A DNA stretch of 64,000 nt, taken from NCBI RefSeq assembly GCF_014640175.1, contig NZ_BMGL01000003.1, positions 67,070 through 131,069 on the forward strand. The letters run 5' to 3'. This stretch comes from Psychroflexus salis. GTDB taxonomy: Bacteria > Bacteroidota > Bacteroidia > Flavobacteriales > Flavobacteriaceae. Below, one piece after another: positions 2,530 through 50,885 of this stretch (the first letter of the stretch is position 1; each line of letters begins with the position of its first letter). Both the position numbers and the translations under genes were made by a program. The notes under the pieces were generated by a model, which saw only the letters and a program-made list of their open reading frames with translations, did no database searches and had not been told where the DNA came from.

Positions 2530-3129
2530 TTATTTTGTTGCAAATAAACGAATAATTTCAGCTTTTCCTTTATGGAAATTTCCTTCTTGTAATTCGATGA
2601 CTTCATGCTTTAGTGAAAGAATTTGTAAGGCTTTAAAATCCTGTTGAAGCATTGCTTCAGTGTACAACATTTCTTCATTTTTAGGACCACCAGAAGCTCT
2701 GTTATGATGAAGTTGTTTAACGTGAAATGCTTCTAAAATAAGAGTGCCGCCAGGCTTTAAACTCTTTATGATATTTTGGTGTAATACATGGCGTAAATCA
2801 GCTGGCGGGTGGGCAAAAATTAAAGCAGCGGCATCGTATGTGTTTTCACTAAAATCGTAATGGTGTAAATCCGATATTTCATAATTTACATTTACGTTTT
2901 TAATTTTTGCTAAAGATTCAGCTTTCTGTTTGGCAGCTTCAGAAAAATCGAATGCATCAACTTTCCAGCCTTGAGTTGAACAAAAAACCGCATTTCTTCC
3001 TTCTCCTTCAAAGGGAAGTAAAATTTTGCCAGGTTCTAATTCTTCAATTTTGTTTGCTAAAAACTCGTTTGGTTTTGTTCCGTAGGCAAATTCTTCAGCC
3101 TTATAACGTTCGTTCCAAAATTCTTTCAT
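2530..3129 (-). CDS. SAM-dependent methyltransferase (class I, TehB-like)
   Basis: This is a compact 199-residue class I methyltransferase. It opens with FWNERY and the motif YGTKPNEFL seen in TehB/thiopurine-methyltransferase-like proteins, then a glycine-rich SAM loop (LLPFEGEGRNAVF), an acidic end of strand 2 (DAFDFSE) and a later LKPGGTLILE strand. Substrates in this group include thiols, tellurite and small oxyanions; which applies cannot be read from sequence. The ATG at 3129 is preferred to the in-frame TTG 15 bases upstream because the predicted transcript starts near 3136. It heads a two-gene unit with the acetolactate-decarboxylase-like gene and carries the same operator as the sulfide genes, which hints at thiol or sulfur chemistry. 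Confidence 0.7.
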   Translation of the reverse strand: MKEFWNERYKAEEFAYGTKPNEFLANKIEELEPGKILLPFEGEGRNAVFCSTQGWKVDAFDFSEAAKQKAESLAKIKNVNVNYEISDLHHYDFSENTYDAAALIFAHPPADLRHVLHQNIIKSLKPGGTLILEAFHVKQLHHNRASGGPKNEEMLYTEAMLQQDFKALQILSLKHEVIELQEGNFHKGKAEIIRLFATK

Positions 3130-3141
3130 TAAATTTTCTTT

Positions 3142-3185
3142 CAAAACAAAACAAACTTCATCAGATATCCTGTAACTTTGGTTAC
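3142..3185 (-). promoter_or_regulatory. GTAAC-N4-GTTAC operator and promoter of the methyltransferase unit
   Basis: A perfect inverted repeat GTAAC-TTTG-GTTAC occupies 3172-3185. Reading leftward, TTGTTTTG begins 36 bases after the start of the repeat, matching TAnnTTTG in seven of eight positions. The 36-base offset is the same as at five other sites in this window. On the plus strand the same offset would fall inside the MuiA-like gene and shows no promoter, so the leftward gene is the likely target. Confidence 0.6.
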
Positions 3186-8593: not shown

Positions 8594-10132
8594 ATGCTCG
8601 TAAAAATCTACGGAAGCGCTGTTTTTGGGGTAGAAGCGCAAACCATTACCATTGAAGTTAATACCGCAAAAGGAATCGGTTACCATTTGGTAGGACTACC
8701 CGATAAAGCCATACAAGAAAGCAGTTTTCGTATTCAAGCTGCTTTAAAAAATACAGGCTATAATTTTCCTGGTAAGAAGATTACCATTAATATGGCACCA
8801 GCCGATTTACGCAAAGAAGGTTCGGCTTACGATTTGAGTTTAGCCATTGGCGTTTTAGCAGCTTCATCGCAAATTATTTCTGAAGATTTACACAAATACA
8901 TCATTATGGGCGAATTATCCTTAGATGGAAGTTTGCAGCCCATTAAAGGGGCTTTACCTATCGCCATCAAAGCGAAAGAAGAAGGTTTTGAAGGTTTTAT
9001 TTTACCTAAGCAAAATGAAAAAGAAGCAGCGATTGTCAATGGTTTGAAGGTGTATGGTGTTGAACATATCGAGCAAGTAATCCGCTTTTTTCATGAAGGA
9101 AAAAAACTGGAACAGTGCATTGTAGATACTCAACAAACCTTTTACGACTGCCTAAGTAAACCTGAATTTGATTTTGCCGACGTGAAAGGTCAAGAATCCA
9201 TTAAACGCTGTATGGAAATTGCTGCAGCTGGTGGACATAATATTATTATGATTGGTCCGCCAGGTTCTGGTAAAACCATGTTAGCGAAACGTTTACCGAG
9301 TATCTTGCCGCCCATGTCTTTACAAGAAGCTTTAGAAACCACTAAGATTCATTCTATTGTTGGACGGGTAAAAGAAAATCAAGGTTTAATTGCCGAACGC
9401 CCATTTAGAAGTCCTCACCACACTATTTCTGATGTAGCACTCGTTGGAGGCGGCAGCTATCCACAACCTGGAGAAATTTCTCTCTCGCACAATGGAGTTT
9501 TATTTTTAGATGAATTACCCGAATTTAAACGTACGGTTTTAGAAGTAATGCGCCAACCTTTAGAAGATCGCGAGGTAACCATTTCGAGAGCGCGATTTAC
9601 CATTACGTATCCGTCTAGTTTTATGTTGGTGGCGAGCATGAATCCGAGTCCTGGTGGTTATTTTAACGATCCCGATGCGCCGGTAAGTTCTTCACCAGCA
9701 GAAATGCAACGGTATTTGAGCAAGATTTCAGGCCCATTGCTCGACCGAATCGATATTCATATTGAAGTAACTCCAGTTCCATTTGATAAATTAAGTGAAG
9801 AACGCCGTGGCGAAAGTAGTGTCGACATTAGAAAGCGGGTAACGGAAGCCAGAAATATTCAAACGGAACGCTTTGCTGGGCTAGACAATATTCATTACAA
9901 CGCACAAATGGGAGTGAAGCAAATTAGAGCTTTTTGTGCATTAGATGAAACTTCTAAAACTTTATTGAAAACCGCCATGGAACGATTAAATCTTTCTGCT
10001 CGCGCTTACGACCGAATTTTAAAAGTAGCGCGCACCATAGCCGATTTAGAAAAACAAGAGCAAATTCAAGCTAACCACATTACAGAAGCCATACAATACC
10101 GTAGTTTAGATCGCGATGGTTGGTTAGGGTGA
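8594..10132 (+). CDS. YifB/ComM-family Mg chelatase-like AAA ATPase
   Basis: The 512-residue protein matches the YifB/ComM family end to end. It has the N-terminal Lon-protease-like (ChlI) domain with the conserved VEVNTAKGI and GLPDKAIQES, the AAA core with Walker A IGPPGSGKTML and Walker B LFLDELPEF, SASMNPSPGG-like sensor sequence, and a C-terminal ChlI lid domain. ComM is a helicase that promotes branch migration during integration of transformed DNA in Vibrio; in Bacteroidota the role is unproven. The start ATG is the first in frame and matches the usual MLVKIYGSAV opening. It is a single gene convergent with yidC. Confidence 0.93.
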   Translation: MLVKIYGSAVFGVEAQTITIEVNTAKGIGYHLVGLPDKAIQESSFRIQAALKNTGYNFPGKKITINMAPADLRKEGSAYDLSLAIGVLAASSQIISEDLHKYIIMGELSLDGSLQPIKGALPIAIKAKEEGFEGFILPKQNEKEAAIVNGLKVYGVEHIEQVIRFFHEGKKLEQCIVDTQQTFYDCLSKPEFDFADVKGQESIKRCMEIAAAGGHNIIMIGPPGSGKTMLAKRLPSILPPMSLQEALETTKIHSIVGRVKENQGLIAERPFRSPHHTISDVALVGGGSYPQPGEISLSHNGVLFLDELPEFKRTVLEVMRQPLEDREVTISRARFTITYPSSFMLVASMNPSPGGYFNDPDAPVSSSPAEMQRYLSKISGPLLDRIDIHIEVTPVPFDKLSEERRGESSVDIRKRVTEARNIQTERFAGLDNIHYNAQMGVKQIRAFCALDETSKTLLKTAMERLNLSARAYDRILKVARTIADLEKQEQIQANHITEAIQYRSLDRDGWLG

Positions 10133-36519: not shown

Positions 36520-36563
36520 GTAACCCAAGTTACTTTCAATAATCTATAATGAGCTTAGTTTTG
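36520..36563 (+). promoter_or_regulatory. GTAAC-N4-GTTAC operator and promoter of tauE-cstB unit
   Basis: The perfect repeat GTAAC-CCAA-GTTAC (36520-36533) is followed by TAGTTTTG (36556-36563), an exact TAnnTTTG beginning 36 bases after the start of the repeat. That places the operator centre at about -42 from the predicted transcript start, the class II activator position. It is one of six such sites in the window. Confidence 0.75.
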
Positions 36564-36573
36564 CCAAAACTAA

Positions 36574-37386
36574 ATGCAATTTATGGAGATTATAGAAATA
36601 CTAGGATACGTTGGCGCTTTAATTATAGGCGTTGTTTTAGGATTAATAGGTGGCGGCGGTTCCATTCTTACAGTGCCTATTTTAGTCTATATGTTTGGAG
36701 TTAATCCTGTATTGGCAACAGCATATTCTTTGTTTATTGTTGGTTTATCTGCTCTTTTTGGCGCTATAAGAAATATTCAAAAAAAATTAGTCGATTTTAA
36801 AACGGCTATTGTATTCGCTATCCCTGCTTTTATTGCAGTGTATTCTACCCGAATGTATTTAGTTCCTGCAATACCAGAAAGTTTATTTTTTATAGGAGAC
36901 TTCGAAGTGACAAAAAACATTGCAATCATGGCATTTTTTGCTCTTATTATGTTGCTTGCTTCTGTTTCGATGATACGTGATAAGAAGAAAACACAAGAAA
37001 AACCTGAAGAAAAAATTAGCTACAACTTTCCGCTAATTATAGTAGAAGGTGTTGTAGTAGGAGTAATCACTGGAATAGTTGGAGCAGGTGGTGGATTTTT
37101 AATTATTCCAGCCTTAGTTCTGTTAGCTAAATTGCCTATGAAAAAAGCAGTAGCCACATCTTTATTAATAATTTCTGTGAAATCATTAATCGGCTTTCTT
37201 GGGGATGTACAAAATTACGAGATAGATTGGTTTTTCTTAGGCATCTTTACCGCATTAGCAGCAGTTGGAATATTTTTAGGAATTTGGTTAAACAAATATA
37301 TCGACGGAGAAAAGTTGAAAAAAGGATTTGGTTGGTTTTTGGTAGTCATGGGTATTTTCATTTTCTATAACTTGTTAAATGAATAA
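36574..37386 (+). CDS. tauE: TauE/SafE-family sulfite exporter
   Basis: The 270-residue integral membrane protein has about eight transmembrane helices and the two DUF81/TSUP signatures: GLIGGGGSILTVPILVY near the N-terminus and GIVGAGGGFLIIPALVLL near residue 175. Members export sulfite or sulfoacetate, or move thiosulfate. It is followed 57 bases later by the CstB-like gene, as tauE goes with cstB and sqr in the Staphylococcus aureus cst operon, so export of sulfite or thiosulfate made by persulfide oxidation is the likely role. The ATG at 36583 is an alternative start giving a longer leader. Confidence 0.85.
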   Translation: MQFMEIIEILGYVGALIIGVVLGLIGGGGSILTVPILVYMFGVNPVLATAYSLFIVGLSALFGAIRNIQKKLVDFKTAIVFAIPAFIAVYSTRMYLVPAIPESLFFIGDFEVTKNIAIMAFFALIMLLASVSMIRDKKKTQEKPEEKISYNFPLIIVEGVVVGVITGIVGAGGGFLIIPALVLLAKLPMKKAVATSLLIISVKSLIGFLGDVQNYEIDWFFLGIFTALAAVGIFLGIWLNKYIDGEKLKKGFGWFLVVMGIFIFYNLLNE

Positions 37387-37443
37387 TCTAATTAAAGATA
37401 CCAAGCAACAAAAACCTATACATTAATATTAAAAAATAAAATT

Positions 37444-38853
37444 ATGAAAATTGAACAAATTTATACAGGATGTTTAGCTCAAGGAGCTTATTTTATAGAA
37501 AGTAATGGAGAAGTTGCCATTATTGATCCCTTAAGAGAAGTGCAATCTTATATAGATCAAGCTAACAAAGAAAACGCAACTATTAAATATATATTTGAAA
37601 CACATTTTCACGCTGATTTTGTAAGTGGGCATATTACACTTGCTGAAAAAACTGGAGCAAAAATAATTTACGGTCCTAACGCAAAAACTGCATTTGATGC
37701 TTATATAGCTAAAGATGAAGAAATTTTTAAATTAGGTAATCTACAAATTAAAGTACTGCATACTCCAGGTCATACCATGGAAAGTACAAGTTATTTATTG
37801 CTTGATGAACAAGGTAAAGAACATGCCTTATTTACTGGCGATACCTTGTTTTTAGGAGATGTAGGAAGACCAGATTTAGCGCAAAAAGCTGCAGACATGA
37901 CGCAAGAGCAACTAGCTGGAACTTTATACGATAGTTTGCGTAACAAAATAATGCCTCTGCCTAATAGTATAACCATTTATCCTGGACACGGAGCTGGTTC
38001 TGCTTGCGGTAAAAACATGATGAAGGAAACCGTAGATACGCTAGGTAACCAAAAACAAATGAATTACGCCTTAAGAGAAGATATGACTAAAGATGAATTC
38101 ATTAAAGAAGTTACTGATGGTTTATTACCACCACCACAGTATTTTCCGCTTAATGTAAAAATGAATAAAGAAGGTTATGAATCCATCGATACCGTCTTAA
38201 ATCGAGGTTTAAAAGCGTTAAATCCATCAGAATTTGAAGCTGCTGCTAATGAAACTGGTGCTTTGGTTTTAGACGTAAGAAATGAAACAGATTTTGCAAA
38301 AGGCCATATTCCTAGTTCTGTTTTTATAGGATTAGATGGTAATTTTGCACCCTGGGTAGGTACTTTAATTGCTGATGTAAAACAGCCAATTCTTGTTGTT
38401 GCGCCAGAAGGAAGAGAAGAAGAAACAGTAACACGATTATCGCGAGTTGGGTTTGATCAAACATTAGGTGTTTTAAAAGGAAGTTTTGAAGCTTGGAAAA
38501 AAGCATCAAAAGAATATGATCGTGTAAATTCTATAACTTCAGAAAAATTTAAAAACATTTATGAAACTAACGAAATCCCCGTATTTGATGTACGAAAGGA
38601 AACAGAATATTTATCCGAACGTCTCCTAAATGCAGAAAATACTCCACTCGATTTTTTAAACGAACATTTGGCTGAATTTCCTAAAACCAAAAATTTTTAT
38701 TTGCATTGTGCAGGCGGTTATCGTTCTATGATTGCTGCTTCAATGCTCAAAAAAAGGGGAATACATAATTTAACGAATATTGAAGGTGGTTTCGATAAAA
38801 TAAAAGAATTAGGTATGCAGGTAACCGATTACGTTTGTCCGTCTACTTTATAA
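37444..38853 (+). CDS. CstB-like persulfide dioxygenase with two rhodanese domains
   Basis: The 469-residue protein is a metallo-beta-lactamase-fold persulfide dioxygenase (1-255) fused to two rhodanese domains. The iron site is in THFHADFVSGH (H54, H56, D58), with H110 in HTPGH, D133 in TGDTLF and H182. The first rhodanese (about 260-355) has no cysteine in its active loop (VVAPEGREEE) and is probably structural. The second (about 365-469) has HCAGGYRS with catalytic Cys422. S. aureus CstB has this order, and oxidises low-molecular-weight persulfides to sulfite and thiosulfate. It probably acts on bacillithiol persulfide here. It is co-transcribed with tauE and ends at a strong terminator. 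Confidence 0.88.
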   Translation: MKIEQIYTGCLAQGAYFIESNGEVAIIDPLREVQSYIDQANKENATIKYIFETHFHADFVSGHITLAEKTGAKIIYGPNAKTAFDAYIAKDEEIFKLGNLQIKVLHTPGHTMESTSYLLLDEQGKEHALFTGDTLFLGDVGRPDLAQKAADMTQEQLAGTLYDSLRNKIMPLPNSITIYPGHGAGSACGKNMMKETVDTLGNQKQMNYALREDMTKDEFIKEVTDGLLPPPQYFPLNVKMNKEGYESIDTVLNRGLKALNPSEFEAAANETGALVLDVRNETDFAKGHIPSSVFIGLDGNFAPWVGTLIADVKQPILVVAPEGREEETVTRLSRVGFDQTLGVLKGSFEAWKKASKEYDRVNSITSEKFKNIYETNEIPVFDVRKETEYLSERLLNAENTPLDFLNEHLAEFPKTKNFYLHCAGGYRSMIAASMLKKRGIHNLTNIEGGFDKIKELGMQVTDYVCPSTL

Positions 38854-38879
38854 ATTGTTGATTGTAGTTTAAGTTTGTA

Positions 38880-38913
38880 AGAAGCTGTCTAATAAGATGG
38901 CTTCTTTTTTTTT
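38880..38913 (+). terminator. Terminator of the tauE-cstB unit
   Basis: AGAAGCTGTCT (38880-38890) pairs with AGATGGCTTCT (38895-38905), including G-T pairs, around an AATA loop. It is followed by eight T residues. Confidence 0.85.
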
Positions 38914-38930
38914 ATAAAATTGTGTCAAAA

Positions 38931-38974
38931 GTAACTATAGTTACATAAGTAACTATAATAAAAACTTATCTTTG
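38931..38974 (+). promoter_or_regulatory. GTAAC-N4-GTTAC operator and promoter of the peroxiredoxin gene
   Basis: GTAAC-TATA-GTTAC (38931-38944) is fully palindromic over 14 bases. TATCTTTG (38967-38974), an exact TAnnTTTG, starts 36 bases after the beginning of the repeat. A second half-site, GTAACTATA, repeats at 38949-38957 inside the spacer and might modify binding. Confidence 0.75.
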
Positions 38975-38999
38975 TTTGAAATAATAAAAGTTTTTAATT

Positions 39000-39671
39000 A
39001 TGGAAAATAATGTAAGTTTACAAGAAAAAGAAGTGTTTACAATGCCAAAAATTGGAGATAAAGCACCAGATTTTAATGCAGTAACCACACAAGGAAACAT
39101 TCAATTATCAGATTTTGCAAAAGATAAATGGATTGTTATGTTTTCTCACCCAGCAGATTTTACACCGGTTTGTACGACAGAAATGAGTGGTTTTGCTGAA
39201 AGAAAAGCTGAGTTTGAAGCACTAAATACAGAGTTACTTGGTTTAAGTATCGATTCTATTCATTCTCATATTGGTTGGGTAGATAGTGTAAAGCAAAACA
39301 CGGGGGTTTATATGGATTTCCCAATTATTGCCGATATCGATATGAAAGTATCTAAGTTATACGGAATGCTTCAACCTAACGAAAGTGAAACAGCTGCAGT
39401 TAGAGCGGTTTTCTTTATTGACCCGAATAAAAAAATAAGATTAATCATGTACTACCCCTTAAATATAGGTAGAAACATGGATGAAATTTTAAGAGCCTTA
39501 GAGGCTTTACAGTTTTCAGATAAAAATGGCGTTGCTTGTCCATTAGATTGGAAAAAAGGAGATAAAGCTATTGTACCACCACCAAAAAATTTGAAAGATT
39601 ACGAAGCTAGAATTAAAGATGATACTGTAGAAAAAACTACATGGTACTTAGCCAAAAAACAAATTGACTAA
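39000..39671 (+). CDS. Peroxiredoxin, Prx6/1-Cys type
   Basis: The 223-residue protein belongs to the Prx6-like group with a long C-terminal arm. The peroxidatic cysteine is C58 in SHPADFTPVCTTE, and a second cysteine, C180, lies in VACPLDWKKGD. The active-site Thr and a conserved Arg (VRAVFFIDP region) are present. It reduces peroxides and possibly persulfides with a thiol donor in the cytoplasm. A second possible start is the ATG at 39042, beginning MPKIGDKAPDF. The gene has its own operator-linked promoter and terminator. Its place in the sulfide regulon suggests protection against peroxide or reactive sulfur formed during sulfide oxidation. Confidence 0.9.
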   Translation: MENNVSLQEKEVFTMPKIGDKAPDFNAVTTQGNIQLSDFAKDKWIVMFSHPADFTPVCTTEMSGFAERKAEFEALNTELLGLSIDSIHSHIGWVDSVKQNTGVYMDFPIIADIDMKVSKLYGMLQPNESETAAVRAVFFIDPNKKIRLIMYYPLNIGRNMDEILRALEALQFSDKNGVACPLDWKKGDKAIVPPPKNLKDYEARIKDDTVEKTTWYLAKKQID

Positions 39672-39695
39672 TTCTAAATTTAATCATATTTGTAA

Positions 39696-39729
39696 AAAAA
39701 ACCGTTTCTGTAAAATGAAACGGTTTTTT
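39696..39729 (+). terminator. Terminator of the peroxiredoxin gene
   Basis: A 13-bp perfect stem (39696-39708 with 39717-39729) ends in a T-run, 25 bases beyond the stop codon. The open frame that crosses it is not coding. Confidence 0.85.
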
Positions 39730-39736
39730 ACTTTAG

Positions 39737-39780
39737 GTAACTTATGTTACCTATATACCGTTTTAGTTTTCATAATTTTA
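39737..39780 (+). promoter_or_regulatory. GTAAC-N4-GTTAC operator and promoter of the diheme/carbonic anhydrase unit
   Basis: GTAAC-TTAT-GTTAC (39737-39750) is extended by one more pair (G and C) on each side. TAATTTTA (39773-39780) starts 36 bases after the beginning of the repeat and matches TAnnTTTG in seven of eight positions. The predicted start is about 10 bases before the ATG at 39796. Confidence 0.7.
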
Positions 39781-39795
39781 TGCAAAATATTTTTG

Positions 39796-40788
39796 ATGAA
39801 ATACGTTTATTTATTTACTCTGGTGATTAGTATGTTGGCTTGCAATTCAGACAAAAAGAAAAACAATTATACTAAAATAGATTCGGAAGACCCTCAAGTT
39901 GAATTGGCTAAAGCAGCAAAGCTAAACATGGAAAACAAATGTTACCTGTGCCATAACCCAACATCTTCAGAACAAAATAGAATTGGACCGCCAATGGCTG
40001 CTATAAAGGCAAGGTATCTTAAAGATGCTTCCAGTAAAGAACACTTTATTCAAGCTATTTGGAACTTTGTAGAACAGCCCACTAAGCAAAAAGCTAAACT
40101 TAAAGGAGCGGTTAAACGTTTTGGAGTAATGCCTTATCAAAAATACAACCAAGAAGAAATAGAAGCTATTGCAGCCTATATTTTTAGTTATAACATCGAG
40201 GAACCCGATTGGTTCAAAGCGCATTGGAAAGAAAAGCACGGAGAAAAATTTAGCCAAAAGGGCAAAAAACTTTCTAACCAAGCAATTAACGACAAAGATT
40301 ATACAGCAATAGGCATGAAGTATGCTAAAACTACCAAAGCCCAACTTGGTAAAAATTTAATGGGAGCAATACAAAATAATGGAGTTTTGCATGCATTAGA
40401 GTTCTGCAATGTTCAAGCCATGCCTATAACCGATTCAATGGCTCAGGTACATCAGGCACAAATTAAACGAGTTTCAGATAAAAATAGAAACCCATTAAAT
40501 GCTGCAAATTCTTCAGAATTAAAACACATTAAATTTTTTAAAAGTCAAATTGCTGAAGCTAAAGAACCAAAACCTATTATAGAAGAGAATTCGAGTTCGA
40601 TTAATTTCTATTATCCGATTCTTACAAACGATATGTGTTTAAAATGCCATGGAAAACCAAATGAAGATATTGCACAAAAAAACTACAATAAGATATTAAA
40701 ACTCTATCCAAATGATAAAGCTATTGGATATGATATAAATGAAGTTCGCGGTATTTGGAGTATTGAATTTGAAAAAAATGAAAAATAG
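39796..40788 (+). CDS. Diheme c-type cytochrome lipoprotein with DUF3365 (Tll0287-like) domain
   Basis: The 330-residue lipoprotein (lipobox MLACN) has two heme c motifs. The first, CYLCH (C49/C52/H53), is in a cytochrome c domain with a likely axial Met in GVMPYQ near residue 112. The second, CLKCH (C281/C284/H285), is in a C-terminal DUF3365 domain with LEFCNVQAMPITDSMAQ and VSDKNRNPLNAAN. DUF3365/Tll0287-like domains are heme-bound and structurally like sensor domains. It should lie in the periplasm on a membrane and carry electrons or sense a ligand. The ATG at 39796 gives the lipoprotein signal and fits the operator-linked promoter. It overlaps the carbonic anhydrase gene by 11 bases. 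Confidence 0.85.
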   Translation: MKYVYLFTLVISMLACNSDKKKNNYTKIDSEDPQVELAKAAKLNMENKCYLCHNPTSSEQNRIGPPMAAIKARYLKDASSKEHFIQAIWNFVEQPTKQKAKLKGAVKRFGVMPYQKYNQEEIEAIAAYIFSYNIEEPDWFKAHWKEKHGEKFSQKGKKLSNQAINDKDYTAIGMKYAKTTKAQLGKNLMGAIQNNGVLHALEFCNVQAMPITDSMAQVHQAQIKRVSDKNRNPLNAANSSELKHIKFFKSQIAEAKEPKPIIEENSSSINFYYPILTNDMCLKCHGKPNEDIAQKNYNKILKLYPNDKAIGYDINEVRGIWSIEFEKNEK

Positions 40789-41599
40789 TAAGTACGTATT
40801 TTTAAGTTTTAGTATTGTTTTAATTTTGAGTTGTAATTCTAACCAAAACAAACGAACAGAACAAGGCATTGTTGAAAGAGAAGACAATGATCTACAGCCC
40901 GAAAACATACAAAAACACACCGATTGGTCGTATACAGGCGAGACTGGTCCTGAACACTGGGCAGAATTAGAAGAAAATTCGGTTTGTTCAGGAAATTTTC
41001 AATCGCCTGTAAACATTGTAAAGTACAAAACAGATACTAGTTTAAAACCAATCGATTTTTATTATGCCAAAGAAACAATTTTACATGATGTGGTTAATAA
41101 TGGCCATACCATACAATACGATTTCGAAGCGGGAGATTATTTAGTTTTTAAAAACCAAAACTTTCATCTTAAACAATTTCACTTTCACGAACCTGCAGAA
41201 CACACAATTGATGGAGTTCGGTTTCCATTAGCAATACATCTTGTTCATCAAAATAATAATGGGAATTTTTTGGTAATTGAAATACTAGTAAAAGAAGGAA
41301 AAGCAAGTAAAACATTCGATTTTTTAGAAAGTTTTTTACCTATTGCAAAAGGCGAAACAAAACTTGTTAATGAAGCATTTGATATGAATTTAAATTTGCC
41401 CCAAAACAAAGCTTACTATACTTATGTTGGTTCTTTAACTACTCCACCTTGTACTGAAGGAGTACGATGGATTATTTTTAAGGAATCAATTAGCATATCT
41501 TTAGAGCAAGTTGAACTTTTAAAATATTTAATGCCTATCAATAATTATCGAGAAGAGCAACCGCATCATGGCAGAGCTATATTGCAAACTGCTTTTTAA
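40778..41599 (+). CDS. Alpha-type carbonic anhydrase (lipoprotein)
   Basis: The 273-residue protein has a lipobox (LILSCNS), then a complete alpha-carbonic anhydrase domain. It shows GPEHWAELEENSVCSGNFQS-like opening with the family's GxxQSP, zinc ligands in QFHFHEPAEH (His-x-His and the later His), LHLVHQ-like sequence, and YVGSLTTPPCTEGVRW near the end. It hydrates CO2 in the periplasm. The ATG at 40778 overlaps the cytochrome gene by 11 bases, so the two are translated from one message. A link between CO2/bicarbonate or proton balance and sulfide oxidation at the cell surface is possible but unproven. Confidence 0.92.
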   Translation: MKNSKYVFLSFSIVLILSCNSNQNKRTEQGIVEREDNDLQPENIQKHTDWSYTGETGPEHWAELEENSVCSGNFQSPVNIVKYKTDTSLKPIDFYYAKETILHDVVNNGHTIQYDFEAGDYLVFKNQNFHLKQFHFHEPAEHTIDGVRFPLAIHLVHQNNNGNFLVIEILVKEGKASKTFDFLESFLPIAKGETKLVNEAFDMNLNLPQNKAYYTYVGSLTTPPCTEGVRWIIFKESISISLEQVELLKYLMPINNYREEQPHHGRAILQTAF

Positions 41600-41669
41600 T
41601 CTCAATAATTCATTAAGTTAAAGCTAAATAATTACATTCATCAGTTTTTAATTTTATAACACATTATAT

Positions 41670-42353
41670 ATGAAAAAACTAGGTTTAATTGGTGGCACAT
41701 CTTGGCACTCTACAGTAGAATATTATAAAAATATAAACCAAAAAATAAGCGAAAAGATAGGACTTTCTTCAAATCCAGAATTAATTCTCTATTCAATAAA
41801 TATCGATGTAATGCGCAAGCAAGTGCTCAAAGATATTCATCAAAAATACTTAGAAGTAGCTACTAAACTTCAACAAGCTGGAGCAGAAGCTATTTTAATT
41901 TGCGCAAATACACCACATATGGCTGTAGCATATGTTCAGCCTAAAATAGCTATTCCTTTTTTACATATAGCAGATGCCACTGCAGAAGAAGCAAAAAAAA
42001 TGGGATATAATAAATTAGCTCTATTAGGTAATAAACCCACAATAACTAAATCTTTTTTAAAAGATAGATTAGCCCAAAAACACAATTTAAAAATCATAAT
42101 TCCAACAGAAGATGCCATACAACAATCGCATCATTTTGTGTCAACTCAACTAACACAAGGAAAATTTACAGAAGAAGCAAGAGATTTTTACAAACAACAA
42201 ATACAAGATTTTAAATCTCAAAATGTCGATGCTGTTATTTTAGGCTGTACTGAGCTTCCAATTCTTTTAAAAGATGAAGATACAGAACTCCCAATGCTAC
42301 ATACTACAGATTTGCATATTCAGAAAGCAGTAGATTTTATTTTAAGTGAATAG
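41670..42353 (+). CDS. Aspartate/glutamate racemase family protein
   Basis: The 227-residue protein has the family fold with two catalytic cysteines, in ILICANTPHM and VILGCTELPIL, and the opening KKLGLIGGTSWHSTVEYY typical of YgeA-like amino acid racemases. It should interconvert L- and D-aspartate or -glutamate, or act on a broader range of amino acids, without PLP. It sits between the carbonic anhydrase and sqr genes on the same strand, but it has no GTAAC palindrome. Membership of the sulfide regulon is doubtful. Confidence 0.85.
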   Translation: MKKLGLIGGTSWHSTVEYYKNINQKISEKIGLSSNPELILYSINIDVMRKQVLKDIHQKYLEVATKLQQAGAEAILICANTPHMAVAYVQPKIAIPFLHIADATAEEAKKMGYNKLALLGNKPTITKSFLKDRLAQKHNLKIIIPTEDAIQQSHHFVSTQLTQGKFTEEARDFYKQQIQDFKSQNVDAVILGCTELPILLKDEDTELPMLHTTDLHIQKAVDFILSE

Positions 42354-42446
42354 ATTGTATAATTAGCATAATAATGGCTATAATTTTTATTAGTTCGCAT
42401 AAATAGCTTCAACAAATTATAAATTCAGTAGTTTTTATAGCTCAAT

Positions 42447-42490
42447 GTAACAATAGTTACAAAAGTTAAGCAAATCTTAATATATATTTG
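42447..42490 (+). promoter_or_regulatory. GTAAC-N4-GTTAC operator and promoter of sqr
   Basis: GTAAC-AATA-GTTAC (42447-42460) is extended by a T and an A on its outer sides. TATATTTG (42483-42490), an exact TAnnTTTG, starts 36 bases after the beginning of the repeat and 24 bases before the sqr ATG. Confidence 0.75.
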
Positions 42491-42513: not shown

Positions 42514-43770
42514 ATGAAATCGAATTATCAAGTGCTCATTATTGGAGCTGGTACAGCAGGAATTATGACTGCCGCTCAGTTGCTAAAAAAAGACCCTAAA
42601 TTAAGTGTAGGTATTATTGACCCAAAAGATACACATTACTATCAACCAGCTTGGACATTAGTTGGAGCAGGAACTTACGATTACGATAGCACAGGAAAGC
42701 CTATAAAAGAATTAATTCCGAAAGGTGCAGATTGGATACAAGATTACGCACAAAGCATAAATGCAGAGCAGAACACAGTGTCTACAAAATCTAATGGAGA
42801 TTATACCTACGAATATTTAGTAGTAGCACCAGGTTTAGTTATGGCACCAGAATTAATTGAAGGTTTACCCGAAGCTTTAGATAAAGGTGTTGTTTGTAGT
42901 AATTATACAGATCCTAAACACACTTGGGAAGTTATCAAAAACTTTAAAAGTGGGAACGCCATATTTACCCAACCTACAACTCCTATAAAATGCGGTGGTG
43001 CGCCCCAAAAAATTGCTTATTTGGCAGCAGATTATTTCAAGAAAAACAATATCGATGCACGTGTAGTTTTTGCCACACCTGGGTCTGTATTATTTGGCGT
43101 AAGAGAAATTAGAGACACATTAACCAAAGTAGTAGAACGATACGGAATGCATTTTAAGCCTTTTTATGCACCACAAAAAATTGATACTAAAAATAAAATT
43201 ATAACTTTTAATTACGTTGGAGACGACGAAAACCAATGTGTAACCAACGAAAGTAAAGAAATTGGAGAAAAAATTTCTGGTATTACCAATATAGAAGTTC
43301 CTTTCGATATGTTGCATTTAGCACCGCCGCAAGCTGCACCTAAGTTTATAAAAGAATCTAATTTAGTGAACGAAGAAGGTTGGTTAGATGTAAATATAAA
43401 CTCTTTACAACACAATACATACCCTAATATTTTTGGTTTAGGAGACGTTGCTGCACTACCAACAGCAAAAACAGGTGCTGCCATAAGAAAACAAGTTCCT
43501 GTTGTTGTAGAAAATTTATTTTTTATGATAAATAATAAACCTGCAACCAATAAAAGCTACAAAGGCTACTCGTCTTGTCCATTGGTAACTGGATATGGAA
43601 AAATGGCTTTAGCCGAATTCGATTATGAAGGTAATTTTACACCAGACCCTAAATTAAAGCAAATGCTTGTTTTTAATTCTGCTAAAGAACATTGGAGATT
43701 GTGGATGCTAAAAAAATACGGACTTCCTTATTTATATTGGAATAAAATGATGCGTGGAGAAAACGTTTAA
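42514..43770 (+). CDS. sqr: Sulfide:quinone oxidoreductase
   Basis: The 418-residue flavoprotein has the FAD-binding GAGTAGIMTAAQ at the N-terminus, the SQR-specific HYYQPAWTLVGAG (residues 41-53), IKCGGAPQKIAY with Cys160, and YSSCPLVTGYGK with Cys355. These two cysteines carry the sulfur bridge near FAD in SQRs. A third, Cys128 (GVVCSNYTDP), lies where type I enzymes have one, although the overall sequence is closer to type II/mitochondrial-like SQR. It oxidises sulfide at the cytoplasmic face of the membrane, hands electrons to quinone and gives persulfide, the substrate for the CstB-like enzyme. It has its own operator-linked promoter. Confidence 0.92.
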   Translation: MKSNYQVLIIGAGTAGIMTAAQLLKKDPKLSVGIIDPKDTHYYQPAWTLVGAGTYDYDSTGKPIKELIPKGADWIQDYAQSINAEQNTVSTKSNGDYTYEYLVVAPGLVMAPELIEGLPEALDKGVVCSNYTDPKHTWEVIKNFKSGNAIFTQPTTPIKCGGAPQKIAYLAADYFKKNNIDARVVFATPGSVLFGVREIRDTLTKVVERYGMHFKPFYAPQKIDTKNKIITFNYVGDDENQCVTNESKEIGEKISGITNIEVPFDMLHLAPPQAAPKFIKESNLVNEEGWLDVNINSLQHNTYPNIFGLGDVAALPTAKTGAAIRKQVPVVVENLFFMINNKPATNKSYKGYSSCPLVTGYGKMALAEFDYEGNFTPDPKLKQMLVFNSAKEHWRLWMLKKYGLPYLYWNKMMRGENV

Positions 43771-44881: not shown

Positions 44882-47800
44882 TTAGCCATTTTTAGCATAT
44901 TTTTTTTTCATTACCACATAATAGACCAAAGGAACAACCAATAATGTTAAAAAAGTAGAAACAATGGTTCCTCCCATAAGTGAAAGCGCTAGGCCTTGAA
45001 AAATTGGATCGAATAAAATTGCAACAGCTCCAATTACTACTGTTCCTGCTGTAAGTAATATAGGAGTTGTTCGTACTGCTCCAGCTTCAATAATAGCTTG
45101 CTTAAAAGCAATGCCATCGTTCAGTCGTATTTCAATAAAGTCGATGAGCAAAACCGAGTTTCGTACCATAATTCCTGCTAGAGCAATCATACCTATAAAA
45201 GATGTAGCGGTAAAAAAGGCGTCAAAAATCCAATGTGCTAAAATAATTCCAACTAACGAAAGTGGAATGGCAATCATCATTACAATAGGAGAGCGGAAGC
45301 TTTGGAACCAACCTACAATTAGCATATAAATAATAAAGATTACACCGATAAATGCTATCCCTAAATCGCGAAATACTTCTAAAGTAATTTGCCATTCGCC
45401 ATCCCATTTTACTTTGTAATTATCCGTATCTACTGGAATTTCTGTATATAACTCTTCTATAGAGTAGCCTTCGGGTAAATAAATATCTTTTAAGTATTTT
45501 TCCATACCTAAAATAGCATAAACAGGACTTTCTAAATCTCCAGCCATTTCTGCAGTTACATATACTACAGGTCGTTTGTTTTTTCTGAAAATACTTTTCT
45601 CTATAGGTTGTTCAACAACTTTTACCAAATCGCCAATTTCTACTGGGTTGCCCTTAGCTGAAATTACTTTAAATTTCAATAACTCATCTAAATTAGCTTT
45701 GTCTTTATTTTTAGTTTTATATATAATGTTTACAGTTTGGTTAGCGTTTTCTCTGTAAGCTTGTGCTATGGCGTGTTCACCTAGGCTTAATTGCATAGCT
45801 TTAACCAACTGTGCTGGAACGATGCCTTCTAAGCTAGCTCGTTCTCTATCAACTTGAAAATGTAATTCTTTTTGTTCAGCTTCAACTCTCCAATCAATAT
45901 CTACTACATCTTGAGTTTCGCTAAGAATTTTTTTAATATTTCTAGCAATATTAATTTGTTCGTTATAATTTGGGCCGTAAACTTCAGCTACAATTGTAGA
46001 TAAAACTGGTGGTCCAGGCGGTACTTCAACAATTTTTATATTTGCTCCATATGGATTGCCAATTTTTTGGACATCTTCTCTAAACGATTTGGCAATATCA
46101 TGACTCTGCTCGCTTCGCTCGTCTTTATGCGTAATATTAACCTGTATATCGGCCATTCGTGGCTCATTACGTAAATCGTAATGCCTTACTAAGCCATTAA
46201 ATGTTATTGGAGAAGCTGTACCTACATAGCTTTGGTAATTTACAACTTCTGGTCTACTTTTTACATACTCAATAATTTCTTGAGTTACTGCATTGGTACG
46301 TTCTAAGGTTGTTCCTTCAGGCAGGTCGATAACAATTTGAAACTCATTTTTATTATCAAATGGCAGCATTTTTACTAAAACAGACTGGTTTAAAAACAAG
46401 ACTATAGATGCTAGTAATAACAAGGTTATTCCTCCAATAAAACCCCAGCGTTTTGTTCTGCTTTCTAGCATCGGACGTTGGATTTTATTATACAGCTTAT
46501 AGATTTTAGTTTGTTGTAAATCTTTATCTTCTTCTGCTGCAGACTCGTTTTCTATTTCTTCAAAATCATCGGTATTTTCATCTTCGCCTTCAACTAATTG
46601 TTTACCATCGGCTTTTAAAAAATAGTAAGCTAGGTAAGGTACAATAGTTAATGCTATAAATAACGATAAAATCATAGTAATAGAAGCACCAATTGGCATA
46701 GGACTCATGTAAGGCCCCATTAAACCGCTTACAAATGCCATTGGAAGCACTGAAGCTATAACAATAAAAGCAGCTAAAATAGTGGGGTTACCTACTTCAT
46801 TAATGGCATAGATTGCTGCTTTTCGCAAACTCATTTTCTTCATTTTAAAATGCCGATGCATATTTTCGGTAATAATAATGGAGTCGTCTACAACAATACC
46901 GGTAATAAAAATTAAAGCAAAAAGCGTAATTCGGTTTAAGGTATAATCGAATAAATAATAACTCAACATGGTTAATGCAAAAGTAATTGGCACTGAAATA
47001 AATACCACCAAACCACCACGCCAACCCATAGAAAGCATAACAACTATGGTAACAGCTAGTATAGCACTAAGTAAGTTGAATAATAAGTCGGACACTTTAT
47101 CGGATGCCGTTTCTCCATAATTTCGGGTAACTTCCATTTGCACATCTTCTGGAATAATGTATTTTTCCCAGCGTTCTTTTTGATTTACAACTGCTTCTGC
47201 CACTTGCATAGCATCAGCGCCTTTTCTTTTGGCTACAGAAATAGTAACAGCTGAATAAGTTGATGGTATTTCATTTTTTAATTTGGATGCAGCACCATAT
47301 CCAAAGCTTACATAATTTTTGGCAGATTCAGGTCCTTCTGAAACATGAGCTATTTGATGTAAATAAATGGGTTGTTGTTGATGTGTTCCAACAATTAATT
47401 CATTTAAATCTGTTGGTCTAGAAATGTAATTACCTGTAGATATTTTAATCTCTTCGTCACTTTTTTGAATATTTCCACTGGAAGATTGCATGTGGTTGGC
47501 CTGAATCATTTCAGTTACTTTTAATATATCTAACCCATAATTAGCCATTTCCTGATGGTCCAATTCAATTTGAAGCGCTTTACTTCTTCCACCTATATTT
47601 TTTGTGGTTGAAACATTTTCTACTTTTTCAATTTCAACAATTAGTTCGTTGGCCATTTGATGCAGTTGGTAATCGTCGTAATTTTCGCTAAAAAGTGTAA
47701 TACCCAAAACAGGCACATCGTCTATAGAACGTGTTTTTATAAGTGGTTGTGTAACTCCTTTGGGCATCATGTCCATGTGCTTCATAATTTCGTTATGAAG

Positions 47801-48145
47801 CTTTACATACGAACGCTCTATGTCTTCGCCTACATAAAATTGTACGATTACCATTCCTTGTTCTTTCATAGAAGTAGAATACACATATTCTACACCTTGA
47901 ATATTTGAAATTATTCGCTCTAATGGAACGATAACTCTGTTTTCTACTTCTTTTGGGCTGGCTCCCGGATAACCAACAAAGATATCTGCCATGGGCACAT
48001 CAATTTGTGGTTCTTCTTCTCTAGGAATTAATAAAGTAGCATATATTCCTACTCCCATAAAAACCACCATTAATAAAACTGTGATTTTTGAAGTTAAAAA
48101 AGCATTAGCTAATTTTCCTGCTATACCGTTTTTCATTTTTTTCAT
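44882..48145 (-). CDS. RND efflux pump, inner-membrane permease
   Basis: The 1087-residue permease of the AcrB/MdtB type has twelve predicted transmembrane helices in two repeats. It opens with the typical LIPREEEPQIDVPMADIFVGYPGASPKEVE-like region, has acidic residues in helix 4 (FALIFITGIVVDDSIIITEN) used for proton transfer, and ends with FLTLLVVPLVYY. An acidic insertion (about residues 525-560) lies in the central loop. It drives export of drugs or toxic organics by proton antiport. It is the last gene of an OMF-adaptor-permease operon headed by the GTAAC palindrome at 50872-50885. The ATG at 48136 is an alternative start. Confidence 0.93.
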   Translation of the reverse strand: MKKMKNGIAGKLANAFLTSKITVLLMVVFMGVGIYATLLIPREEEPQIDVPMADIFVGYPGASPKEVENRVIVPLERIISNIQGVEYVYSTSMKEQGMVIVQFYVGEDIERSYVKLHNEIMKHMDMMPKGVTQPLIKTRSIDDVPVLGITLFSENYDDYQLHQMANELIVEIEKVENVSTTKNIGGRSKALQIELDHQEMANYGLDILKVTEMIQANHMQSSSGNIQKSDEEIKISTGNYISRPTDLNELIVGTHQQQPIYLHQIAHVSEGPESAKNYVSFGYGAASKLKNEIPSTYSAVTISVAKRKGADAMQVAEAVVNQKERWEKYIIPEDVQMEVTRNYGETASDKVSDLLFNLLSAILAVTIVVMLSMGWRGGLVVFISVPITFALTMLSYYLFDYTLNRITLFALIFITGIVVDDSIIITENMHRHFKMKKMSLRKAAIYAINEVGNPTILAAFIVIASVLPMAFVSGLMGPYMSPMPIGASITMILSLFIALTIVPYLAYYFLKADGKQLVEGEDENTDDFEEIENESAAEEDKDLQQTKIYKLYNKIQRPMLESRTKRWGFIGGITLLLLASIVLFLNQSVLVKMLPFDNKNEFQIVIDLPEGTTLERTNAVTQEIIEYVKSRPEVVNYQSYVGTASPITFNGLVRHYDLRNEPRMADIQVNITHKDERSEQSHDIAKSFREDVQKIGNPYGANIKIVEVPPGPPVLSTIVAEVYGPNYNEQINIARNIKKILSETQDVVDIDWRVEAEQKELHFQVDRERASLEGIVPAQLVKAMQLSLGEHAIAQAYRENANQTVNIIYKTKNKDKANLDELLKFKVISAKGNPVEIGDLVKVVEQPIEKSIFRKNKRPVVYVTAEMAGDLESPVYAILGMEKYLKDIYLPEGYSIEELYTEIPVDTDNYKVKWDGEWQITLEVFRDLGIAFIGVIFIIYMLIVGWFQSFRSPIVMMIAIPLSLVGIILAHWIFDAFFTATSFIGMIALAGIMVRNSVLLIDFIEIRLNDGIAFKQAIIEAGAVRTTPILLTAGTVVIGAVAILFDPIFQGLALSLMGGTIVSTFLTLLVVPLVYYVVMKKKYAKNG

Positions 48146-48318: not shown

Positions 48319-49389
48319 TTAGTACGAAATATTTATTCCATTATATAATTTAGATTCTCCCAAAATAATAATTTGTTCGTCGGCTGCTAATCCACTTAAA
48401 ATCTCAATGTGTTCATTAACTACACCACCTACTCGTACCCAACGCAATAGGGCTGTGTTCTGTTGACTTACTACATATAATCCTTTTAATTCTCCTCTTC
48501 TAATTATACTGTTTTTAGGTACAAAAATTCCTTTACGAAGTTGGTCTGTTTTTAGCGATAAACTAGCATTCATACCAGCAAACAAAGTTTCATTGTTTGT
48601 ATTAGTTATGCTTGCTTTCACTTTATATTGTCCTCCTGTTGAGGTAGAAGAAGAGCTTACTTCACTTATAAGTGCAGTTAATTTTCTATCCGCATCATCT
48701 AAACGCACTACAGCCGAATCTCCCTGTTGAAAATTATCAATATCGCGTTCTGAAACTAAAACTTCTATTTCAAAACCAGACTTTCCTTCCAATTGAAGCA
48801 TAGCTTGTTGTGGGTTAGCTAAATCTCCTTTTTGAACATTTTTAGCTGTAATTACCCCATTAAAAGGAGCTTTAATTTGGTAATATTTCATTTCAGAATT
48901 TACTTCTTGCAATTGTTGTAATGCCGCTTGTTTTTGCGCTTTAACAGAGACCAATTGGAGTTCTATGTTTTCTAATTCTTTTGCAGAAATACTTTGCTTT
49001 TCGTATAAATTTTGATAACGTTTTACATCGCGTTGTGTATTGTTTAGTTGCGCATTAATTTGCTGAATTTGTGCTTCAACTTGTGCTTTTTTAGCTTGTA
49101 AATCAGTATTATTTAAGCGAATAAGTAAATCGCCTTGTCGTACTTGGTCGCCTGTTTTTACATATACTTCTTCAACAAAACTCGAACCGCGTGTGCGTAT
49201 ACTCGTAGATTCTGCAGCTTTAATTTTTCCTTTAAAACTTAAGGTTTTAGCAACTTGTGTGCTAGGTTTGCTAAGTTTTACTTGAACACTAGGTACTTCA
49301 TTAACTTGTTGTTCTTCTTTGCTTCCACAGCTTATGAGCAGACCAGAAGTAAAAATTAGTATTCCGAATGTATAGATTATTTTATTCAT
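48319..49389 (-). CDS. RND efflux periplasmic adaptor (HlyD/AcrA family)
   Basis: The 356-residue lipoprotein (lipobox LLISCGS) has the membrane-fusion-protein layout: a lipoyl half (SFVEEVYVKTGDQVRQGDLL), an alpha-helical hairpin rich in Gln/Lys (about residues 85-160), the second lipoyl half (APFNGVITAKNVQKGDLAN) and beta-barrel domains. It bridges the permease and the outer-membrane channel. The ATG at 49389 gives the lipoprotein signal; an in-frame ATG 33 bases upstream does not. The gap to the permease gene is 173 bases, larger than usual, but no terminator is visible in it. Confidence 0.9.
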   Translation of the reverse strand: MNKIIYTFGILIFTSGLLISCGSKEEQQVNEVPSVQVKLSKPSTQVAKTLSFKGKIKAAESTSIRTRGSSFVEEVYVKTGDQVRQGDLLIRLNNTDLQAKKAQVEAQIQQINAQLNNTQRDVKRYQNLYEKQSISAKELENIELQLVSVKAQKQAALQQLQEVNSEMKYYQIKAPFNGVITAKNVQKGDLANPQQAMLQLEGKSGFEIEVLVSERDIDNFQQGDSAVVRLDDADRKLTALISEVSSSSTSTGGQYKVKASITNTNNETLFAGMNASLSLKTDQLRKGIFVPKNSIIRRGELKGLYVVSQQNTALLRWVRVGGVVNEHIEILSGLAADEQIIILGESKLYNGINISY

Positions 49390-49520
49390 TTTAAATGGTA
49401 TTAAGTATTGAGTATAAGGCAATTTATTTTATTAATATTTTTTGAGCATCCTTGCTTACTGCTCCTTGTTACTTTGTAATTCATATTTTAACCGCAATAG
49501 GCAAACGAAACAAAGCTACT

Positions 49521-50822
49521 TTAGTTGGTATTTCCTAAAAATTGAACTTGTAATTGTGCTAAATTAAATTGAAAAATAGATTGATTGTAAAGTAACTCTT
49601 GGTTAGCTAACCGAACTTCTGCGTTAAGTAAATCGGTTGCTCTTTCAAGTCCTTCGTCAAATCTGTTTTTTCTAATTTGAAATGCTTCTAGTGCTTGCTC
49701 TAATGAAAGTTGATTTCTATTCATTAAATTTTCTGCTTCTTCGAGTTTACGCTTTGCTTTTTGTAATTCAACTTTAGCTGAAGCTTTGTAGTCTTCGGCT
49801 TCTATTTTAGCTTGTTGAAGTTGAGCTTTCATTTTTTGGTTCTTAGCTACTCGGCTTCCACCTTCAAATAAATTCCAATTTAATGAGGCTCCAACAAAAA
49901 AATTATCAGCTCCTGTACCTAATAAATCTTCATCAAAATACTGTACATTCCCAAAAGCATTTAGCGTTGGCAAGTACATCTTTCCAGCTGACTGCTTCAT
50001 TTTTTTGTATGCATCTACACTTAAATCCATAGCTAGTATATCCTTTCTTTCTTCCAGTTTTTCTGTTAGATCATTAAGCTTTAAATGTACCTGTAGTTTG
50101 TCTGCAGGTGCTAGTAAGCTTCCTTCATCATTCATCATATAATACATATAATCTGAAATAGATTGAAGTTCGTTTTTAGCTATACTTAGTGCATTTTCTA
50201 CTTCATTAAGTCTAACTTTTGCACTCAGCACATCAGATTTTACTAGTAAACCTTCCGTATAAAAATCTTCTATACTTTTTAAATTCTCTTCAGCGGTGAG
50301 TTTAGATTTTTCTAAAACTACAAGGCTTTTATATGCCAGTTGTAATTGCATGTACAAACGCTCGGCTTGCAAAAACAAAGCATCTTTTTTAAAGGTATTT
50401 TGTTCTAATTGAGCATCGGCTCTATCTTTTAAAGCTGAACGCATAACTAACTTATCTAAATTAATCAAGGGTTGTTCTACTTGAAAAGTGCTTACAAAGT
50501 TTGTAATGGCCGAAGGATTATTTAGGTTATCTATGGCAAAGTCACTTTCTGAAAATATACCTTGGTTTAATAAAGTACCAAACGCCATAACAGGATTATC
50601 TGTTCGGTAGGCGGTATGCGATGCACTTAACTGCGGAAGAAATGCCGCGTTGGTTTCACGGTATTCTGCCTTCATTTGCAAATATTCTTGTTCGTTGGCT
50701 TGTAATTTTCTGTTGTTTTGCTCTACCTTACTTTTAAACTCATCTAAACCAATTGTTTTTTGTGAAAAGCCCAAAGTGGTAAACAGCAAGAACAAGATTG
50801 TTTTTATTAAATAATGTTTCAT
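49521..50822 (-). CDS. TolC-family outer-membrane efflux channel
   Basis: The 433-residue protein has a signal peptide ending GFSQ, then two repeats of long amphipathic helices and short strands, as in TolC. The typical N-terminal NRKLQANEQEYLQMKAEY and LNWNLFEGGSRVAKNQKMKAQ are present. It forms a trimeric outer-membrane channel. It is the first gene of the efflux operon and intact, unlike the NodT-type remnant at 44193-44825, so the operon has its own working channel. Its promoter carries the GTAAC palindrome. Confidence 0.93.
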   Translation of the reverse strand: MKHYLIKTILFLLFTTLGFSQKTIGLDEFKSKVEQNNRKLQANEQEYLQMKAEYRETNAAFLPQLSASHTAYRTDNPVMAFGTLLNQGIFSESDFAIDNLNNPSAITNFVSTFQVEQPLINLDKLVMRSALKDRADAQLEQNTFKKDALFLQAERLYMQLQLAYKSLVVLEKSKLTAEENLKSIEDFYTEGLLVKSDVLSAKVRLNEVENALSIAKNELQSISDYMYYMMNDEGSLLAPADKLQVHLKLNDLTEKLEERKDILAMDLSVDAYKKMKQSAGKMYLPTLNAFGNVQYFDEDLLGTGADNFFVGASLNWNLFEGGSRVAKNQKMKAQLQQAKIEAEDYKASAKVELQKAKRKLEEAENLMNRNQLSLEQALEAFQIRKNRFDEGLERATDLLNAEVRLANQELLYNQSIFQFNLAQLQVQFLGNTN

Positions 50823-50841: not shown

Positions 50842-50885
50842 CAAATTTAAAATGATAGAACAGACTTATAGGTAACATTTGTTAC
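50842..50885 (-). promoter_or_regulatory. GTAAC-N4-GTTAC operator and promoter of the efflux operon
   Basis: GTAAC-ATTT-GTTAC occupies 50872-50885. On the minus strand TAAATTTG (50849-50842), an exact TAnnTTTG, begins 36 bases after the start of the repeat and about 20 bases before the TolC-family ATG at 50822. Confidence 0.75.

Follow-up and report, generated by a model that had tools for sequence, protein, structure and literature searches.

How are the genes for sulfide and persulfide oxidation controlled in Psychroflexus salis? A stretch of 64,000 nucleotides from this flavobacterium (assembly GCF_014640175.1, contig NZ_BMGL01000003.1, positions 67,070 to 131,069), here called the window, carries copies of the palindrome GTAAC-N4-GTTAC before such genes. 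A preliminary description of this DNA proposed that the palindrome is a class II operator for a Crp/Fnr-type protein and unites a sulfide/persulfide regulon. Comparative evidence supported this interpretation and pointed to a candidate protein. The palindrome is very probably the operator of one Crp/Fnr activator of 216 amino acids (aa), which would govern a sulfide/persulfide oxidation regulon. The operator, its fixed geometry, its targets, its linkage to and co-occurrence with the protein, and the invariant cysteines of that protein were all read directly from sequence.

Six exact palindromes were found in the window, each where the preliminary description had placed it (3172, 36520, 38931, 39737, 42447 and 50872), with no further exact copy. 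Their number was far beyond chance, as had been claimed. The mean of 100 dinucleotide shuffles was 0.02 and none of the 100 reached six. When one mismatch was allowed a single site was added, at 9767. The TAnnTTTG-type element, here called the -7 box, began exactly 36 bases from the palindrome start (+36) on the strand of a downstream gene at all six sites, again in agreement with the earlier account. It was exact at four sites, as TAGTTTTG (36520), TATCTTTG (38931), TATATTTG (42447) and TAAATTTG (50872, minus strand). Five of the six fixed bases were present in TAATTTTA (39737) and TTGTTTTG (3172, minus strand). The two sites facing the minus strand lead to a methyltransferase gene (3172) and to an efflux operon (50872) encoding TolC, a membrane fusion protein (MFP) and a resistance-nodulation-division (RND) pump. 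Site 3172 is also within a plus-strand stop-to-stop frame of 632 codons, and the likely ATG of that gene is downstream of the site. The window features are:

2530..3129, minus strand: S-adenosylmethionine-dependent methyltransferase, TehB/TPMT-like (Pfam)
3172..3185, minus strand: putative operator before the methyltransferase gene, -7 box TTGTTTTG (5/6) at 3149-3142
36520..36533, plus strand: putative operator of the tauE-cstB operon
36556..36563, plus strand: -7 box TAGTTTTG of the tauE promoter, predicted to occupy -12 to -5 (register from the available part of PMC9723704)
36574..37386, plus strand: TauE/SafE sulfite exporter family protein (PF01925, 4e-46)
37444..38853, plus strand: CstB-like persulfide dioxygenase with two rhodanese stretches (Pfam; PDB 3r2u)
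38931..38944, plus strand: putative operator of the peroxiredoxin gene, -7 box TATCTTTG at 38967-38974
39000..39671, plus strand: peroxiredoxin with AhpC-TSA and 1-Cys-Prx C-terminal domains (NCBIfam PRK13189 above cut-off; Pfam)
39737..39750, plus strand: putative operator of the cytochrome c lipoprotein gene, -7 box TAATTTTA (5/6) at 39773-39780
39796..40788, plus strand: cytochrome c and Tll0287-like protein, N-terminus read as a lipoprotein signal (Pfam)
40778..41599, plus strand: carbonic anhydrase (PF00194, 4.5e-42)
42447..42460, plus strand: putative operator of sqr, -7 box TATATTTG at 42483-42490
42514..43770, plus strand: sulfide:quinone oxidoreductase, SQR (PDB 6mp5, E 8e-91)
44882..48145, minus strand: RND efflux pump (ACR_tran, Pfam)
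48319..49422, minus strand: HlyD-type MFP of the efflux operon (Pfam)
49521..50822, minus strand: TolC-type outer membrane efflux protein (Pfam); the operator also precedes TolC relatives
50872..50885, minus strand: putative operator of the TolC-MFP-RND efflux operon, -7 box TAAATTTG at 50849-50842

Operators of Crp/Fnr class II promoters are typically centred at -41.5. The same centre is predicted here, since transcript starts mapped in a flavobacterium put TAnnTTTG at -12 to -5 (PMC9723704, available part), which would place the operator at -48 to -35. On this predicted register the arrangement is that of class II, and the dyad that had been put near -42 lies at -41.5.

The whole genome (2.87 Mb in 38 contigs) contained 14 exact sites compared to five for the reversed-pattern control. 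Six of the 14 are those of the window. Ten sites precede genes, and at seven of the ten these are sulfur or redox genes by label. The remaining four are inside long open frames of 455 to >877 codons (C1:62697, C9:58526, C9:97747 and C19:4762) and are about as many as the control matches. One of them, C9:58526, has a five-of-six box at +36, which shows the chance level. Among the ten gene-preceding sites the box at +36 was exact at six and had five of six bases at three. Four of the ten are outside the window:

C1:185510: site of a YeeE-type pair
C5:45179: site of a fatty-acid hydroxylase-like protein, box starting at +35
C6:184570: site of an HMA protein; behind it is a second CstB-like enzyme (L019:3628-5258) with its own operator
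C12:59175: site of a thioredoxin

Two proteins with an HTH_Crp_2 domain are encoded in the genome, the 216-aa protein (C10:72496-73146) and a fusion of receiver, cyclic nucleoside monophosphate (cNMP)-binding and helix-turn-helix (HTH) domains on C11. The gene of the 216-aa protein is outside the window and unlinked to the window cluster in P. salis, but inside the cluster in relatives. A C-terminal Crp-type HTH was predicted (PF13545, 27.9 bits, cut-off 27). The N-terminal cNMP-binding-like barrel was borderline (PF00027, 28.4 bits in the genome search and 26.4 bits against a cut-off of 27.5 in hmmscan). The recognition helix is HTSRVVISRLL and the protein contains the segment GETCSMTLNCC. 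Its cysteines C82, C88 and C89 were invariant in 31 of 31 relatives, and also in all 80 relatives of at least 50% identity. They align with the segment of cAMP-CRP that holds the nucleotide, and the aligned cassette is a sequence of the GDTCAMTLTCC/GDTCAMTLSCC type. The closest solved sequence was PDB 3dv8 (E 5e-13, or 1e-20 with a profile) with NtcA next. By score the protein is neither a cAMP-CRP (CRP equivalog model, 47 bits against a cut-off of 266) nor an NtcA (TIGR03697, 35.4 bits against 244.95). The predicted structure of the Cellulophaga baltica orthologue, with a mean predicted local distance difference test score of 85.6 and a helix at 112-156 as expected for the long dimer helix, matched Crp-family structures including the NtcA-DNA entry 9gui. 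Block confidence was lowest (62) at residues 71-80, the cysteine loop, so cysteine geometry was not read from the model. The other Crp-type protein of the genome, the receiver-cNMP-HTH fusion on C11 (L021:2206-5349), adjoins PAS histidine kinase-like and universal-stress-like genes, as labelled by eye.

Regions of up to 20 kb round crp orthologues were taken from 20 family genomes, and each of the 20 held at least one exact site. The neighbours of the orthologue are drawn from tauE, cstB, sqr, prx, yeeE and related genes, and operators are interspersed among them. Three of the regions held a single site (L100, L101 and L106), and L101 has only a yeeE pair nearby. A set of 80 loci was picked by the protein alone and not by the operator. 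Scanning genomes with the protein aligned to 13 relatives yielded 586 relatives, and the 80 best loci were retained. These include Tamlana, Cellulophaga, Maribacter, Kordia, Aequorivita, Psychroflexus, Aquimarina and some unplaced metagenome bins. We take the named genera to be mostly Flavobacteriaceae.

The 80 loci contained 222 exact sites, distributed over 76 loci. Spacers of 0-3 and 5-12 bases in place of N4 gave 0-4 sites each, five palindromes of the same composition gave 0-2 each and the reversed palindrome gave six. A single site of the 222 was deep in an open reading frame. In 64 of the loci the crp gene had a site no more than 500 bp away, placing motif and regulator gene in the same cluster. 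Site density was 1012/Mb in the first kb downstream of crp, with none at 6-10 kb upstream; in the 67 loci where crp had its usual position, a single typical coordinate served as the gene end. At 8-10 kb downstream, a stretch still within the cluster, the density was 83-156/Mb. Of the 229 site-gene pairs, in which a gene preceded by two sites counts as two, 92 had an exact TAnnTTTG at +36, compared to three at +35, two at +37 and 12 elsewhere (+14 to +89). At least five of the six box bases were present at +36 in 174 pairs. In the 174 promoters T was found at -49 (88%), -51 (67%) and -34 (63%) and G at -33 (62%). TTTG occurred in the -33 region of three of them only, a scarcity partly built in because the invariant GTTAC fills most of that region.

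Genes of the 80 loci were labelled by their best BLAST matches to reference proteins from the P. salis genome and the first 20 regions. The commonest labelled targets were the persulfide dioxygenase-rhodanese (CstB-like, 42 site-gene pairs for 67 labelled genes), the sulfite exporter (TauE, 35/42) and YeeE (16/21). These were accompanied by crp (13/85), single-domain rhodanese (11/45), peroxiredoxin (10/16), fatty-acid-hydroxylase-like (10/21), SQR (9/10), sulfite-oxidase-like (9/8), SulP (9/27), DUF983 (8/14), TolC (6/5), cytochrome bd subunit I (5/15), HMA (5/21) and cytochrome c (5/28) genes. Unlabelled genes made up 34 of the 229 pairs. No site was directly upstream of DUF6691 genes (0/22), the second of the YeeE pair, or of Usp or RND/MFP genes in these loci. 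In relatives, sites precede orthologues of sqr, cstB, tauE, yeeE and the peroxiredoxin gene. SQR, the CstB-like enzyme, TauE and peroxiredoxin, the targets listed in the preliminary description, were borne out but the regulon is wider than that list. It takes in sulfate permease, a sulfite-oxidase-like (molybdopterin) enzyme and cytochrome bd in relatives, and efflux, thioredoxin and methyltransferase genes in P. salis.

A survey of 199 family genomes used the pattern palindrome-N12-32-TAnnTTTG, and E < 1e-45 was the line that we drew for a strong match to the protein. The pattern was matched 320 times compared to 56 for the reversed control. Of the 156 genomes with a strong protein match, 133 had a site with its box, as did 3 of 20 with a weaker match and 1 of 23 with none (strong against none, Fisher 1e-14, uncorrected for kinship and for genome size; genomes without the protein are often small). 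The genome with a site and box but no protein match is 73% complete. The Crp/Fnr gene thus tracks the motif across the 199 genomes. Among 40 relatives the pattern was matched in 24 of 25 same-genus genomes (P. salis included) and in 3 of 15 others of the order. Forty-six same-genus loci, a subset of those found, held 45 distinct exact sites with a 22-base gap, 39 before labelled target types, five before unlabelled genes and one without a start within 300 bp. In a phylum sample of 148 genomes the pattern was present in 20 and a protein match at E 0.001 in 70. Protein matches outside the class were weaker. Four genomes of one family there (f21) keep a GTAAC site and the R-V pair of the recognition helix, the sites preceding yeeE in some and sqr in another. 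The family genome G195 has 28 copies of GTAACN4GTTAC (control 4), of which just two are followed by a -7 box after 12-32 bases, and its match to the regulator is weaker.

A variant operator, GTGAC-N4-GTCAC, was present in eight of the 80 loci (L140, L153, L154, L155, L156, L164, L172 and L187). Six of these sites precede cstB and have at least five of six box bases at +36. Recognition helix and half-site were compared in 40 regions, a chosen subset of the rows of distant relatives that includes some same-family paralogues. Loci with an R-V helix had GTAAC in 11 of 22 and GTGAC in none of 22, compared to 1 of 18 and 3 of 18 for loci with R-E (Fisher 0.004 for GTAAC and 0.08 for GTGAC, kinship uncorrected). 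A V-to-E specificity switch in the helix is suggested, but it is not clean because all eight GTGAC loci have an R-V protein. Six further relatives of 36-41% identity in the 80 loci keep C82 only and have an R-E helix (SREVISR, or SREGISR in L141). They were seen 1-7 kb from the regulator gene in L141, L158, L187, L189, L197 and L204. In L261, L266, L273 and L274 a relative of the regulator keeps C82 and the R-V helix, C88/C89 are replaced by GG, thioredoxin genes are nearby and a GTAAC site is in the locus.

Other regulators of such genes were compared. CstR, SqrR, BigR and FisR likewise control sqr, cstB/PDO (persulfide dioxygenase) or related genes. FisR is sigma-54 dependent, and none of the four is of the Crp/Fnr type. 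The CsoR/CstR family was absent from the P. salis genome (PF02583, 0 matches), as expected from the earlier observation that no CstR-like gene is present, and CstR-type control was rejected. CstR belongs to the CsoR family, SqrR and BigR are ArsR-type repressors, and CstR and SqrR sense reactive sulfur through cysteine pairs, according to the available part of PMC9774590. The 216-aa protein shares the two-domain fold, HTH_Crp_2 and the predicted -41.5 operator with cAMP-binding Crp and with Fnr. It differs from them in its half-site, which is GTAAC and not TGTGA or TTGAT. NtcA, the cyanobacterial nitrogen regulator, has the Crp fold and the R-V pair, binds GTA-N8-TAC and activates in class II fashion. 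Every GTAAC-N4-GTTAC site contains this NtcA consensus, but the NtcA regulon is different and the effector region of the 216-aa protein has three cysteines. In PDB 3dv8, from Eubacterium rectale and described as a putative Crp/Fnr regulator, the residues aligned with C82 and C88 are cysteines too, but the C89 position is isoleucine and the helix is of the R-E type. OxyR, of the LysR family, is also an activator, with a different operator and fold. In Escherichia coli it is reported to sense sulfane sulfur (PMC6831875, available part), and an Acinetobacter Crp-like protein close to E. coli Crp is persulfidated (PMC7315123, available part).

Further details of the window genes were recorded. The CstB-like protein was matched over residues 3-453 of 469 to PDB 3r2u (E 2.8e-60), presumably Staphylococcus CstB. 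The closest solved relatives of the SQR are mitochondrial SQOR. The carbonic anhydrase gene (40778..41599) overlaps the cytochrome c gene upstream of it and the two probably share one transcript. A TPMT gene adjoins sqr and an operator in the relative L091. An extra GTAAC half-site closely follows the 38931 operator at window positions 38946-38960 (TAAGTAACTATA) and may be a weak second half-site.

Linkage, co-occurrence and helix type suggest that the 216-aa protein binds the operator, and the -41.5 register points to activation and not repression. A dimer would place its recognition helix SRVVISR on the operator from -48 to -35, replace the -33 box and contact RNA polymerase as a class II activator. 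Sigma-A would then initiate from TAnnTTTG at -12 to -5. Enzyme roles were taken from the protein families. SQR would form persulfide, the CstB-like enzymes would convert persulfide to sulfite and TauE would export the sulfite. YeeE would transport sulfur compounds, and the peroxiredoxin, thioredoxin, cytochrome c, methyltransferase and efflux genes would handle side products. In relatives the sulfite-oxidase-like enzyme, sulfate permease and cytochrome bd could complete a sulfide-to-sulfate route. The conserved cysteines, at the cAMP-type effector position, together with the gene set suggest thiol or persulfide sensing, and the three invariant residues would most likely sense sulfane sulfur or thiol oxidation. 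A bolder proposal, which we put forward tentatively and hold to be nearly as plausible as not, is that this is an activator-type persulfide sensor of Bacteroidota, absent from the known list. In it a three-cysteine C-x5-CC sensor would replace the cyclic-nucleotide cassette of Crp/Fnr, and the protein would turn on the entire route from sulfide to sulfite/sulfate by way of a rigid class II promoter, with the half-site partly following the helix (R-V with GTAAC, R-E with GTGAC).

A fixed -41.5 register is the arrangement of activators, while repressor sites usually wander. With 92 exact boxes at +36 compared to five at +35 and +37, and scarcely any -33 box to block (TTTG in 3 of 174), it is unlikely that the same Crp/Fnr protein represses by covering the -33 region and is freed by persulfide. 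The operator does overlap that region, and CstR, SqrR and BigR are repressors of this kind (PMC9774590, available part). It is also very improbable that the linkage of the 216-aa protein is incidental and that another factor binds the sites, be it the receiver-cNMP-HTH protein on C11 or an unrelated dimeric regulator. The genome does encode two HTH_Crp_2 proteins, and the survey for a binder covered Crp-type proteins. However, the 222 sites were found in loci picked by the 216-aa protein and peak beside its gene, 22 of the 23 genomes without it are also without a site with box, and alignment shows its R-V pair to be shared with NtcA. The C11-type protein is further disfavoured as the binder by having only four relatives in the 80 site-rich loci, none with an upstream site. 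An origin of the sites as chance palindromes or a mobile repeat has next to no probability. Four sites in P. salis are inside genes, and the five control matches imply that a few of the 14 genome sites are expected by chance. The spacer specificity, intergenic placement and fixed promoter register extend across many genera, and with the shuffle statistics and the spacer and register data of the 80 loci such an origin was rejected for the promoter sites.

The signal may instead be general redox, peroxide, nitric oxide or electrophile stress, with the sulfur genes forming part of a thiol-stress regulon. The peroxiredoxin, thioredoxin, methyltransferase and RND efflux genes that carry the operator in P. 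salis favour this, but sulfur genes head the labelled targets of the 80 loci (CstB-like 42, TauE 35 and YeeE 16 pairs). We consider a general stress signal possible but rather unlikely. Several observations weigh against a single Crp/Fnr activator of sulfide and persulfide oxidation acting through this operator. The P. salis crp gene is not in the sulfur-gene cluster and has no exact operator upstream, the sites within 300 bases being one with two mismatches 272 off and one with three mismatches 60 off. Of the 85 genes labelled crp in the 80 loci just 13 have a site, and on this ground autoregulation was rejected as a general rule. Four of these loci are without any site, and 22 of the 222 sites have no start within 250 bp. 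Thioredoxin (0/13) and TPMT (0/17) genes have no direct site there though they are targets in P. salis. GTGAC-N4-GTCAC precedes cstB in six of the 80 loci, so the GTAAC half-site is not absolute. Of the strong-match genomes 23 of 156 are without a site with box, including the same-genus G174, which keeps one operator, before HMA-cstB and with a five-of-six box. Cysteine sensing is proposed from conservation, and distant relatives lose C88/C89 (L225 and 15 R-V relatives of the CGG type, for example), some while keeping the operator.

Titles and abstract starts were searched, with subscription papers largely outside the search, and within this scope no paper was found on this regulon or regulator or on the control of sulfide oxidation in flavobacteria. 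Flavobacteria are among the main marine consumers of organic matter. The candidate regulator, the exact operator and the fixed register make the control of sulfide oxidation in this group directly testable, and the operator pattern can be used to pick out sulfur genes in individual genomes. Should the cysteines sense persulfide, a Crp/Fnr-type activator would join sensors whose best-studied members are repressors (PMC9774590, available part); one activator of sulfane-sulfur response, OxyR, has been reported before (PMC6831875, available part). The regulator probably induces genes for the detoxification and oxidation of H2S in a large group of mostly marine bacteria.

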